From: Candidatus Tectomicrobia bacterium
Lineage (GTDB): Bacteria; UBA8248
Direction of reading: 5' to 3'
Assembly: GCA_016192135.1 (NCBI GenBank)
Contig: JACPUR010000017.1
Coordinates: 1 to 64,000 of the forward strand
DNA: 64,000 bases
Below the pieces are notes generated by a model, which was given only the letters and a program-made list of their open reading frames with translations, had not been told where the DNA came from and ran no database searches. Below, piece by piece: positions 51,558 to 55,491 of this stretch (position 1 is the stretch's first letter; each line of letters starts with the position of its first letter). A program made the position numbers and the translations under genes.

Positions 51558-52640
51558 GTGGCATTCGGATTCTTCCAAAGGAAAAAAGAAGAAAAGAAGC
51601 CCCCCGCCGGGGGGGAGGCGCCGCCGGGCGAAGGAGCCGCTGAAGAGGCGCCCCCGGAGGCGGCCGCGCCCGAGGAGGCGGCACCCGCTCCTCCTCCCGC
51701 GCCGCCCCGGCGCGAGGGCTGGTTCGGCCGCCTGCGCTCGGGCCTGGCCAAGACGCGCGAGAGCTTCCTCGGGAGGGTCGGAGGCATCCTGCGGCGCCGG
51801 CCCCGCATCGACGCCGAGACCATCGAGGAGCTGGAGGAGGCCCTCTACGCGGCGGACCTGGGGCCCCTCACGGTGGAGCGGGTGCTCGATCGGCTGCGCC
51901 GGGGGGAGGGGGGCCGGGGCGAGCCCGCCGGGCGCCTGCGCGCCCTCCTCCGGGAGATGCTGGCCCACCCGGCCGTCCCGCCCCGGGCCGCGCCCGCGGC
52001 CCCCGCGAAGGGCGACCCCCGCGTCATCTTCCTGGTCGGGGTGAACGGGGCCGGGAAGACCACCACGGCGGGCAAGCTGGCCGCCCGCTACGCCGCCGAG
52101 GGCCGCCGGGTCATGCTGGCCGCCGCCGACACCTTCCGGGCCGCCGCGGGGGAGCAGATCGAGATCTGGGCGGGGCGGGCGGGCTGCGAGCTGATTCGCC
52201 TGCAAGAAGGCGCGGATCCCTCCGCCGTGGTCTTCGACGCCCTCCAGGCGGCCAAGGCGCGGGGGGCGGAGGTCCTGCTCGCCGACACGGCCGGCCGCCT
52301 CCACACCAAGAAGAACCTCATGGAGGAGCTCAAGAAGGTGCGCCGCGTGGCGGAGCGGCTGGTGCCGGGCGCCCCCCACGAGGTGCTGCTCGTCCTGGAC
52401 GCCACGACCGGCCAGAACGCCCTGGCCCAGGTGCGGGAGTTCGGGGCGGCGCTGGGGGTGACGGGGCTCGTCCTCACCAAGCTCGACGGCACGGCCAGGG
52501 GCGGGGTGGTGGTCGGGGCCGCCCACGAGAGCGGTATCCCCGTCCGCTATATCGGGGTGGGGGAGGGGGTCGAGGACCTCCTCGATTTCGACCCGGACGC
52601 CTTCATCGCCGCCCTTTTCGGGGATGCCGAAGAGGCGTGA
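51558..52640 (+). CDS. ftsY: Signal recognition particle receptor FtsY
   Basis: FtsY is the membrane-associated GTPase receptor that docks the signal recognition particle. After a Pro/Ala/Glu-rich acidic A domain (residues 1-52) come the N domain and the G domain with P-loop GVNGAGKTTT (161-170), DTFRAAAGEQIEIW, DTAGRLHTKKNLMEEL and TKLDGTARGG. Length 360. GTG start after TTGGAGGTTCGCCC. The frame is open far upstream through smc, but that part is not FtsY. Confidence 0.96.
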   Translation: MAFGFFQRKKEEKKPPAGGEAPPGEGAAEEAPPEAAAPEEAAPAPPPAPPRREGWFGRLRSGLAKTRESFLGRVGGILRRRPRIDAETIEELEEALYAADLGPLTVERVLDRLRRGEGGRGEPAGRLRALLREMLAHPAVPPRAAPAAPAKGDPRVIFLVGVNGAGKTTTAGKLAARYAAEGRRVMLAAADTFRAAAGEQIEIWAGRAGCELIRLQEGADPSAVVFDALQAAKARGAEVLLADTAGRLHTKKNLMEELKKVRRVAERLVPGAPHEVLLVLDATTGQNALAQVREFGAALGVTGLVLTKLDGTARGGVVVGAAHESGIPVRYIGVGEGVEDLLDFDPDAFIAALFGDAEEA

Positions 52641-52682
52641 TCCGGGGGTGGCCGGACCGCGCTCGGGCATCTTTTAGATGGG

Positions 52683-52896
52683 CTTTATCCCTCAATATCC
52701 CTTATTATCCGCGACACCCTCCCCGCCGGGCCGAATCATCGAAAAGGCGTTATTTCCCGTTACTAAGCGTTACTAGCCGTGACGTCCTCCTTTTCGCCCT
52801 GAGCGCCCCGCCCCCCTCCGGACGCGGTAAGACCAGGAGAAAAAAAGGGGGCTTTATCCCCTCTTTATCCGTTATTAAGCCTTACTAACCGTGACG
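52683..52896. repeat. Three clusters of 10-bp-phased degenerate repeats
   Basis: Cluster A (52683-52714) has successive ten-base units ending in TATCC. Cluster B (52747-52784) reads TTATTTCCCG, TTACTAAGCG, TTACTAGCCG, then TGACG. Cluster C (52851-52896) reads TCTTTATCCG, TTATTAAGCC, TTACTAACCG, then TGACGG. B and C align over about 35 bases; A is more diverged. The period of ten is not a multiple of three, which argues against coding, and equals about one helical turn, as in arrays bound by a DNA-binding protein. Function unknown. Confidence 0.75.
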
Positions 52897-52941
52897 GCCG
52901 TTTCCTCCTGAATAAATTCCCCTGGGATTCTTGCTTGCAGG

Positions 52942-52960
52942 GGCGGGTTTGAAACCCGCC
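52942..52960. repeat. 19-bp palindrome related to the GTAGGGGCG family
   Basis: GGCGGGTTT and AAACCCGCC are perfect complements around a central G, preceded by CAGG. The same G-rich stem pattern as the neighbouring hairpin elements suggests a relic or solo member of that family. Confidence 0.6.
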
Positions 52961-53134
52961 CTCCAGATGGAGGCGGCCAACGCCTGTGGTCCTAATCCGC
53001 CAACTCCATCCGCGGTCGTCAATGACCGTACAGACAAAGACGGCGCGCCGCCCGCCACGGACAAGATAACGCCTCGCCGCCCGGGGCCGGTTACCGCAAT
53101 TTCGCGCACGTTCATGCTGGACGGGAAAAATTGT

Positions 53135-53206
53135 CTGTAGGGGCGAATCTTGTATTCGCCCCTCCGGCGGGGGAATGCGGGGCGAACACGAGGTTCGCCC
53201 CTACAG
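53135..53206. repeat. Paired hairpin element, GTAGGGGCG family
   Basis: Outer ends CTGTAGGGGCGAA and TTCGCCCCTACAG are perfect complements. Inside are two 9-bp hairpins: GGGGCGAAT/ATTCGCCCC with loop CTTGT (53140-53162) and GGGGCGAAC/GTTCGCCCC with loop ACGAG (53179-53201). The two units are inverted relative to one another, as in paired REP elements. It ends 26 bases before the mrcA stop codon. Confidence 0.85.
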
Positions 53207-53232
53207 GGGCTGGAGCCTTTCCCTTGCTACCC

Positions 53233-55491
53233 TCAGTTCTCCTGCAGGAAGCGGGGCAGCTCGCCCTTGGGGGGGCAGGCCTCGGTGGGCTCGGTGCCCT
53301 GGACGAAGGCCTCGGGGCGGGCCTTCCCCGGGCACCAGCGGGAGGGGAGGAGGCCCGTGCCGGCGTTGATCCGGATGAAATTGATGCCCGGCGGGGGCGG
53401 GGGGAGGGACTTGTCCAGCTCCCGCCCCTGGAGCCAGCCCTTCATCACGTCGATCCAGACGGGCAGGGCGGCCGTGGCCCCCGAGGCGCGGAAGCCCATA
53501 TCCTTGTTGTCGTCCCGGCCCACCCATACGCCGACCACGATGTCGTTGACGAACCCGACGAACCAGGCGTCGCGGAACTCGTTGGTCGTCCCGGTTTTCC
53601 CGGCGGCGAAGGCGGGCAGGCCCCGCGCGGCGCGGCCCGTCCCCTCCAGCACCACCCCGCGCAGGAGGAGCTTCATCTGGTAGGCCGTCTCGGGACTGAT
53701 GGCCTGGTGGACGACGGGCACGTTCTCCTCCAGCACCCGGTTGCTGCCGTCGGTCACCCGCTCGAGGTCGTAGGGGCGGGCGTAGAGGCCGCGCCGGGCG
53801 AACGGCACGAAGGCCGCCGTGAACTCGATGGGGGTCACCTCGAAGGTGCCCAGCCCGAGGGAGAGAAAGGGGTCCATCGGGGAGCGGATGCCGAGCCGCC
53901 GGGCGTAGTCGATCACGCGCTGGGGGCCAATCTGGTCCACGAGCTTGATGGTGGCCAGGTTCAGGGACTGCTCCAGCGCCGTGCGCAGGGTGACGGGGCC
54001 GTAGAAGCGGTCGGTGTAGTTGCGGGGCTTCCAGTCCTTGGGGGTGCCCGGCATCCGGCGGACGAAGGGGGCGTCCACGAGGATGTGCGCCGGGGTGTAG
54101 CCGTTCGCGAGGGCGGCCGCCATGATGATGGGCTTGAAGGAGGAGCCCGGCTGGCGGTGGGCCTGGACCGCCCGGTTGAACGGGTGCCGGCGGAAATTGG
54201 TGCCCCCCACCATGGCGCGGATGGCGCCGGTGGCGGGGTCGAGGGCGACGACGGCGCCCTGGATGCTCTCCTGCCACTCCAGATGGACGCGCTTCTGCTC
54301 CGCCTCCACGTTCACCACCCGGCCCAGCACCAGGTCCCCCTCGCGCAGGAAGGCCGGGTCCACCTCCTTCGGCAGGGGCATCACCGCCTCGTAGCCCCCG
54401 ATGACGCCCCGGACGGCGCGGTCCTTCACCTCGGCGACGCGGAACTGGAAGCCGCTCCCCAGGCGCGGGGGCTTCTCCAGGGGCTTCGGGGGAAGGGGCG
54501 CGAAGCCGCGCTGCGCGTTCATCCGCTCCACGCCCTTCAGGAGGCTCTCGTGGGCGATGCGCTGCAGCTTGAGGTCCAGCGTGGTGTGGACCTGCAGCCC
54601 GCTCCGGTAGAGGGCGGGGCCGAAGCGGCGGTCGAGCCGCTGGCGGATGTTCTCGACGAAATAGGCGGACTCGGGGTGGACGTTCGAGACGGGCGGGGCG
54701 AGCCGCAGGGGCTCCTCGGCCGCGCTCCTCTCCTGCTCCCCGGTGATGTGCCCGAGCTCCTGCATCCGCCGCAGCACCAGGCGGCGCCGCTGGAGGGCGT
54801 TCTCCGGGTTAAGGCGCGGATTGAACCGCGCGGGCGCCTTGGGGAGGCCGGCGAGGGTGGCCGCCTCGGCCAGCGACAGCTCGCCGGCCTGCTTCCCGAA
54901 GTAGATGTGGGAGGCCGCCTCCACCCCGAAGGCGCCGCTGCCGAGGTAGATCTGGTTCAGGTAGAACTCGAGGATCTCGTCCTTGGTGAAGCGCCGCTCG
55001 ATCTCCAGGGCCAGGAGGGCCTCGCGGACCTTGCGCGAGAGGGTGCGGTCGGGGGTGAGGAAGAGCACCTTCGCGAGCTGCTGGGTGATGGTGCTGGCCC
55101 CCTGGACGTAGCGGCGCTCCATCGCGTTCCGGACGATGGCGCGGAGGATGTCGCGGTAGCTGACGCCGGGGTGCTCGTAGAAGCGGTTGTCCTCGATGTC
55201 CAGGAAGGCCTGGCGGACCACGGGCGGAATGCGGGAGAGGGGGGTGGGGATCCGCTTCTCCTGGTACAGCTCGGCGATGAGCTGCCGGTCGCGCCCGTAC
55301 ACCTGGGTGATGGTGCTCGGGCGGTAGTCCCGGAGGTAGTCCAGCTCCGGAAAATCATAGAGATAGGAGAAACCCGCGCCGAGCGCCAGGCCGCCGGCCG
55401 CTGCCATGATGATCAACAGGAAAAGGAACCGGTTCCGGGCGAAGCGGGCTCTCAGCGGCACGGGAGGACCTCGGCGGGCCGGGGGAGGCAT
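53233..55491 (-). CDS. mrcA: Penicillin-binding protein 1A, bifunctional
   Basis: A 752-residue class A PBP that polymerises and cross-links peptidoglycan. A cytoplasmic basic lead is followed by one membrane anchor (about 21-43). The transglycosylase domain has catalytic Glu100 (DIEDNRFYEHPGVS); an OB-like insert spans about 345-410; the transpeptidase has Ser450-xx-Lys453, SLN (509-511) and KTG (632-634). The start is the ATG downstream of the predicted TATAAT; two ATG codons further upstream would lie at or before the transcription start. Confidence 0.95.
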   Translation of the reverse strand: MPPPARRGPPVPLRARFARNRFLFLLIIMAAAGGLALGAGFSYLYDFPELDYLRDYRPSTITQVYGRDRQLIAELYQEKRIPTPLSRIPPVVRQAFLDIEDNRFYEHPGVSYRDILRAIVRNAMERRYVQGASTITQQLAKVLFLTPDRTLSRKVREALLALEIERRFTKDEILEFYLNQIYLGSGAFGVEAASHIYFGKQAGELSLAEAATLAGLPKAPARFNPRLNPENALQRRRLVLRRMQELGHITGEQERSAAEEPLRLAPPVSNVHPESAYFVENIRQRLDRRFGPALYRSGLQVHTTLDLKLQRIAHESLLKGVERMNAQRGFAPLPPKPLEKPPRLGSGFQFRVAEVKDRAVRGVIGGYEAVMPLPKEVDPAFLREGDLVLGRVVNVEAEQKRVHLEWQESIQGAVVALDPATGAIRAMVGGTNFRRHPFNRAVQAHRQPGSSFKPIIMAAALANGYTPAHILVDAPFVRRMPGTPKDWKPRNYTDRFYGPVTLRTALEQSLNLATIKLVDQIGPQRVIDYARRLGIRSPMDPFLSLGLGTFEVTPIEFTAAFVPFARRGLYARPYDLERVTDGSNRVLEENVPVVHQAISPETAYQMKLLLRGVVLEGTGRAARGLPAFAAGKTGTTNEFRDAWFVGFVNDIVVGVWVGRDDNKDMGFRASGATAALPVWIDVMKGWLQGRELDKSLPPPPPGINFIRINAGTGLLPSRWCPGKARPEAFVQGTEPTEACPPKGELPRFLQEN

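Follow-up and report, generated by a model that had tools for sequence, protein, structure and literature searches.

The intergenic region between the convergent genes ftsY and mrcA of a Candidatus Tectomicrobia bacterium probably belongs to a set of about 45 non-coding packaging-site modules that are dispersed in the genome and serve a domesticated, GTA-like phage system, a reading that we base on sequence comparison. It is very likely that the module belongs to the regulon of a domesticated phage; that its phased arrays would be sites for the small terminase subunit (TerS) is likely, and that these sites would direct packaging of the chromosome has about an even chance. The region was studied within a window of 64,000 nucleotides, the whole stretch of DNA analysed, which represents contig C17 of a genome of 3.92 Mb in 41 contigs. 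Genome statistics were obtained from 20-kb samples, partly picked around matches.

Phased arrays between ftsY and mrcA

The region (52641-53232; 592 bp) is enclosed by ftsY (51558-52640, plus strand) and a convergent mrcA-type penicillin-binding protein gene (53233-55461, minus strand; named as in the initial annotation), and holds three lag-10 clusters, at 52681-52719, 52742-52787 and 52859-52895. None of 2000 dinucleotide shuffles of the region gave at least three such clusters (shuffle mean 0.05), and clusters sought in the same region at lags 7-9, 12 and 13 were absent. Clusters B and C agree at 87% over 31 nt, and GC content is 41-51% in the arrays, compared with 60% in the intergenic region and 69% in the window. 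The initial annotation, made from the sequence of the window, had described three 10-bp-phased clusters between the convergent genes, two of them alignable, in A+T-rich DNA against a G+C-rich background, and this description is borne out in all three respects.

Read on the minus strand, each array of the window forms a site of about 47 bp (52896 to 52850, 52784 to 52738 and 52716 to 52670). Array 1 (CGTCACGGTTAGTAAGGCTTAATAACGGATAAAGAGGGGATAAAGCC; 52850-52896, minus strand), a putative pac-like site, reaches a weight-matrix score of 56.8; array 2 (CGTCACGGCTAGTAACGCTTAGTAACGGGAAATAACGCCTTTTCGAT; 52738-52784, minus strand) scores 45.2 and matches, at 84% over 32 nt, the array within terS of G002, a sister genome; and array 3 (TGTCGCGGATAATAAGGGATATTGAGGGATAAAGCCCATCTAAAAGA; 52670-52716, minus strand) matches, at 80% over 46 nt, an array inside a terS gene on contig C30. 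All are built of direct repeats and not of palindromes. At the far end of array 1, a terminator-like sequence, GGGGATAAAGCCCCC followed by seven T residues (52840-52861, minus strand), was read from the sequence, as at several other copies, and GGGGATAAAGCCCC followed by five to seven T residues stands at the end of several copies of the module. No Rfam family matched at gathering score within the window. The feature is, moreover, bigger than the three clusters, as a promoter-like signal (53120 to 53063, minus strand) precedes the arrays.

The surrounding DNA records part of the history of the module. The window contains, as non-coding DNA, a copy of an ABC-permease 3' end (..FALSALAPLRAR*; 52789-52835, plus strand) that is coding in the copy on contig C40; the loci compared were the window, L010 (C40) and L009 (C21), and the 3' end has been copied with the array into other intergenic regions. 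Its presence in the window shows that the array was copied from locus to locus as part of a larger segment, and modules spread through such segmental copying. REP-like palindromes form a separate dispersed repeat outside the site: one (GGGCGGGTTTGAAACCCGCCC; 52941-52961, no strand assigned) lies between the promoter-like signal and array 1 and another (GGGGCGAAT..ATTCGCCCC) at 53139-53200, both are dispersed in the genome, and in many modules such palindromes are inserted between signal and arrays.

The promoter-like signal and the dispersal of the module

The upstream part of the signal in the window is a B box (AGCATGAACGTGCGCGAAATTGCGGTAAC; 53092-53120, minus strand), which in other copies is itself a 10-bp direct repeat (GCGCGAAATTGCGCGAAATTGCGG). 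The signal TTGCGG - 25 bp - TATCTT (53063-53099, minus strand) points into the arrays; the conserved box to the right of the arrays reads GCGCGAAATTGCGGTAAC on the minus strand, with TAYNTT exactly 25 bp past TTGCGG. In the sampled intergenic DNA of this genome, this pair of motifs was found 14 times at a spacing of 25 bp and never at 19 other spacings, the spacer being invariant in length and variable in sequence. Genome-wide, the signal was matched 53 times and its reversed control 5 times, so that about 50 copies exist, and a pattern with the spacer one base short, used as a negative control, stayed at chance level. The 25-bp spacing also holds for a changed box, TTGAGG, in the sister genome G002 (5 vs 0) and, as TTTGCSG-N25-TATNNT, in g5, another genus.

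In a set of 30 signals, 33 lag-10 clusters lie in the 600 bp downstream and none upstream; a constant distance from signal to array was sought and not found. Nearly all signals that are not placed before phage-type genes lead into non-coding DNA with between one and four phased arrays. We read the signal as a putative activator-dependent promoter. For the B box only, an array for activators of the BldC/MraZ type is a possible lead, and a sigma-54 promoter was rejected as a poor fit by eye. In G011, a genome of g5 (L223, L225, L226, L229, L231), the array often stands between two inward-facing B boxes, an arrangement of convergent promoter-like signals.

The phased unit pattern occurs 61 times genome-wide, with no matches for the reversed control, and the module of signal and arrays stands at about 45 dispersed places. 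In a 447-kb sample at a threshold of 17, 23 intergenic clusters were found at lag 10 against 0-4 at other lags, and the coding DNA of that sample held no lag-10 clusters. A+T-containing arrays occur in 8 of the 25 regions between convergent genes, in 10 of the 187 tandem regions and in none of the 35 divergent ones; densities in this sample are biased because it was partly chosen around matches, with gene orientation unaffected. A weight matrix trained on the sites recovered 120 registers against 4 in the control, and the information content of the matrix varies with a period of 10 bp (lag-10 autocorrelation 0.54). Sites have a mean gap of about 71 kb and a minimum of 12.5 kb, a weak sign of avoidance (P 0.005, post hoc). 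These counts speak against an occurrence once per chromosome and, with no smc association at about 45 places, against the suggested link to smc and ftsY. The initial annotation had also named a random, unphased distribution as counter-evidence to its reading; the scatter is there, and the phasing is kept everywhere. A Rho rut site (C-rich, with YC every 10 nt) was rejected on the grounds that modules stand in both orientations in tandem intergenic regions.

By FtsY, the nearest named relatives are the Candidatus Tectomicrobia MAGs JACPCT010000320 and MGDP01000167, followed by sponge-type MAGs labelled Nitrospinota. Close DNA-level copies were not found in relatives; the sequence is restricted to this genome and only the architecture is conserved. 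Conservation of the ten-base period in relatives, which the initial annotation had made a test of its reading, was found between ftsY and mrcA of another genus, where 10-bp phasing recurs with a different unit (AATTTATCGA). Downstream of ftsY in g5 stand ATTTATCGAT-type 10-bp arrays together with GCAAATGCGGGCAAATGCG boxes, each motif occurring tens of times per genome and the reversed patterns giving no matches. Few orthologous site positions are common between genera or with G002, the ftsY-mrcA region being the main exception, and sites turn over between genomes.

Phage-type genes and putative small-terminase paralogues behind the signal

Six placeable signals stand before phage-type genes, with no array in these cases, and the signal lies 54-87 bp upstream of terL, a capsid/protease gene, a holin-like gene and an operon ending in the core terS. 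Behind the terL gene (phrog_675, 4e-46; Pfam GpA_ATPase) lies that for the portal (phrog_10963, 7.5e-39); the head-protease/capsid gene (Phage_capsid_4, 1.6e-44) is the first of a tail cluster that includes neck and minor-tail matches; two tape-measure-like genes stand under signals of their own, each with a small ORF in front; and the other signal-led units are the operon with core TerS last and the gene for the holin-like small protein. An endolysin-type amidase gene (phrog_1794, 1.7e-27) also has the signal upstream, with an array in between. All of these lie among host genes, terL and portal on C10, the capsid/tail cluster on C20, the amidase on C30 and the second tail gene on C41, as do the terS paralogues on C2, C14 and C30. 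Capsid, terminase, portal, tail and lysis genes are host-encoded at dispersed loci, as in a GTA, the genes recovered being short of a complete GTA set. In every genome inspected, a conserved RNase H-like gene (FCGIDTGERCALAVRE..; L331:7550-8221, minus strand, and its orthologues) separates terL from the portal gene, and this gene gave no PHROG match.

The terL gene is single-copy in 14 of the 18 family genomes. Its identity of 83 and 79% within the genus and 61-67% to other genera runs parallel to that of FtsY (86 and 80%, and 65-70%, respectively). Its host neighbours are kept, namely the amtB/P-II region in g3 and g5 and a substrate-binding protein gene in G002, and the core-TerS operon has a host neighbour common to this genome and g5. 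Among the matches listed, those to phage records reach at most 27% identity. The genes are vertically inherited at fixed loci, in the manner of a GTA and not of a recent prophage, and the GTA-like system may form particles, which would package host DNA and not a phage genome.

Three further signals precede genes for putative HTH-bearing TerS paralogues (C30, C14 and C2), with a 10-bp array inside each ORF, over the HTH-coding part; in the example on C30, the array GTCACGGATAATAACGGATATTGAGGGAAAAAACGTGTCAAAAG codes for SRIITDIEGKNVSK. In the TerS family, 13 of the 14 members match phrog_426, terminase small subunit (best 2.2e-9), and Phage_Mu_Gp27/PF11985 (E 0.01 or better), the first member standing at 27.3 bits in Pfam, just under the cut-off of 28; the TerS assignment of the paralogues comes with modest scores, at E about 1e-5. 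The predicted fold places an HTH (pLDDT >90) before further helices in a model with a pTM of 0.46, and its best PDB fold matches, with weak E-values, are the small terminases of G20C and P74-26, the best viral match being a DUF3486 protein. The core TerS (C10) appears to be without an N-terminal HTH; three to four HTH-bearing paralogues are encoded elsewhere in the genome, and it is the HTH-bearing ones that carry arrays. This split between core and HTH-bearing TerS was noted at L331:15291-15833 (minus strand) and L372, and the same one seems present in G002.

Used as queries, the three terS-internal arrays gave 27, 9 and 11 matches (the gene itself included for two) against none for each reversed query, and each array recovered its own family of dispersed intergenic arrays (about 26, 8 and 11). 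For one array type (TTCAGGGATATTCAGGG; TTCAGGGATATTCAGGGATGTTCAGGCTTATT; L346, L334, L343, L342, L164, L172), no terS partner was found. The terS genes of G002, G007 and G014 have a lag-10 excess at the same codons, and the single clear dispersed array in the G007 sample resembles, by eye, the array of that genome's own terS. In g5, the single terS detected is without an internal array, though dispersed arrays are common there, and the location of an array inside terS is therefore not universal. A position in or adjoining terS, as known for pac sites, is accordingly seen here and in G002, G007 and G014, and not in g5.

Candidate packaging start sites and rival readings

In phages of the SPP1/SF6 type, pac covers the promoter of terS together with the beginning of the gene, TerS is proposed to choose intrinsically bent DNA in which A+T runs alternate with G+C pairs, and the HTH motifs of the TerS ring stand about one helical turn apart (PMC4737164). 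The module matches this pac in its promoter-like signal, its phased A+T/G+C repeats and the presence of arrays inside terS, and the arrays are for this reason proposed as pac-like start sites, in which the phased alternation expected of a pac site is seen as a 10-bp period. In the proposed mechanism, the GTA-like regulon would use its promoter (B box, then TATNTT at exactly 25 bp) to read into one to four arrays of about 45 bp, whose 10-bp direct repeats carry an A+T-rich step once per helical turn; a TerS ring, showing one helix-turn-helix per helical turn, would wrap the phased DNA and, once on the array, recruit the large terminase, which at a pac site makes the initiating cut; and packaging of chromosomal DNA would begin at the array. 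The common promoter would co-express the machine, and possibly the sites, together. The initial annotation suggested repeated binding to one face of the DNA, which agrees, by analogy, with small-terminase HTHs set one helical turn apart, and its guess of a binding array would be right in kind and wrong as to the partner.

Likeness to SPP1/SF6 pac, with its small terminase G1P, thus extends to the site over the terS promoter and gene start, the A+T/G+C alternation and the HTH spacing near a helical turn, whereas about 45 chromosomal copies without a gene, a strict 10-bp direct-repeat register, and several array sequence types paired with several TerS paralogues set the present system apart. For RcGTA, packaging is described as random, and neither discrete start sites nor cos or pac equivalents are known; the random choice of host DNA in reported GTAs is attributed to the loss of the DNA-binding domain from the small terminase (PMC6854486, PMC7947584). 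With RcGTA and its relatives, the system shares structural and packaging genes at several host-flanked loci, single-copy, vertically inherited and under one common promoter type, as well as a core TerS that appears, as in RcGTA, to have no N-terminal HTH (PMC6854486). It differs in its additional HTH-bearing TerS paralogues and dispersed pac-like sites, and in packaging genes that resemble Mu gp27 and a GpA-type TerL; such pac-like sites would argue against packaging of the random, RcGTA type. In P22 generalized transduction, packaging of host DNA starts at host pseudo-pac sites, about ten in number and chance resemblances (PMC11226127). The chromosomal sequences described here likewise resemble pac, with a packaging role that is proposed, but they are abundant, multi-unit and equipped with the promoter-like signal of the regulon itself. 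Dispersed intergenic repeats such as REP/BIME are similar in having many intergenic copies and none in divergent regions; a REP/BIME identity is not supported, as its unit is palindromic and the modules consist of a promoter-like signal with phased direct repeats.

Among the alternatives, non-functional debris, that is, terS promoter and gene fragments or MITE-like repeats copied by recombination, is unlikely. Segment copying is indeed visible in the window copy with its permease 3' end from the C40 locus, few sites are at orthologous loci in the sister genome, and the arrays are similar to terS DNA; however, no terS sequence lies between signal and array, the spacer varies in sequence and not in length, several array types stand behind one signal, and conservation tracks the 10-bp period. 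The distribution between divergent (0/35) and convergent (8/25) regions, and the phasing with a different unit between ftsY and mrcA of another genus, also count against debris. Slightly less probable again is that the arrays are operators for TerS-like HTH regulators, or a lambda-like replication origin within an initiator gene. No gene that could be regulated follows the arrays of the dispersed copies, many of which lie between convergent genes, and the proteins match terminase and not initiator or repressor families, even though every non-coding array sits behind a promoter-like signal, the SPP1 TerS-pac complex lowers transcription of the motor operon (PMC4737164), and an A+T-rich phased repeat inside a gene would also fit an origin.

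It is very unlikely that the modules are small-RNA genes, yielding a 10-nt-repeat transcript with an intrinsic terminator that might serve, for example, as a decoy for a CsrA-like or phage RNA-binding protein. The signal ahead of the arrays and the terminator-like T tracts at the end of several copies would suit such genes, but the period equals a helical turn, the A+T/G+C alternation suits DNA bending, the length between signal and array and the inserts there vary freely, and g5 has two signals facing each other across an array; arrays inside terS ORFs and the lack of an Rfam match in the window point the same way. Least probable of all, and hardly credible, is a chromosome-organising site, such as an SMC/ParB loader or an array for a nucleoid protein or bacterial histone. 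A protein that bends DNA or wraps it like a nucleosome could use phased A+T steps, and the sites are dispersed with the wide gaps given above, yet the promoter-like signal and the array sequence are common to phage packaging genes, and the repeats are direct, not inverted, with no tie to smc. The segregation site and chromatin anchor guessed at in the initial annotation are not supported, given the same sharing of signal and array with dispersed phage-packaging genes and the occurrence at about 45 places. A ParB/parS or SMC-loading site is likewise not supported: few inverted repeats near the origin or smc would be expected, and direct repeats at about 45 dispersed loci were found.

The reading of the arrays as pac-like start sites may extend, with roughly balanced odds, to a GTA lineage of Tectomicrobia that possesses a dedicated, genome-wide set of start sites, in which several TerS paralogues, paired with one phased pac-like sequence apiece, would direct the packaging of chosen chromosomal regions. 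Marked start sites for the loading of chromosomal DNA are not known for any reported GTA (PMC6854486, PMC7947584). If the reading is true, gene transfer would be site-directed instead of random, with the sites promoting their own spread. The system would also offer a set of naturally occurring TerS-site pairs with which to address how small terminases recognise DNA, an open question, and its promoter-like signal, with its invariant spacing, provides an easy way of searching uncultured bacteria for GTA regulons. By combining HTH-bearing TerS paralogues, dispersed pac-like sites and a common promoter signal, such a lineage would show a domesticated phage with a programmed, non-random map of chromosome transfer.
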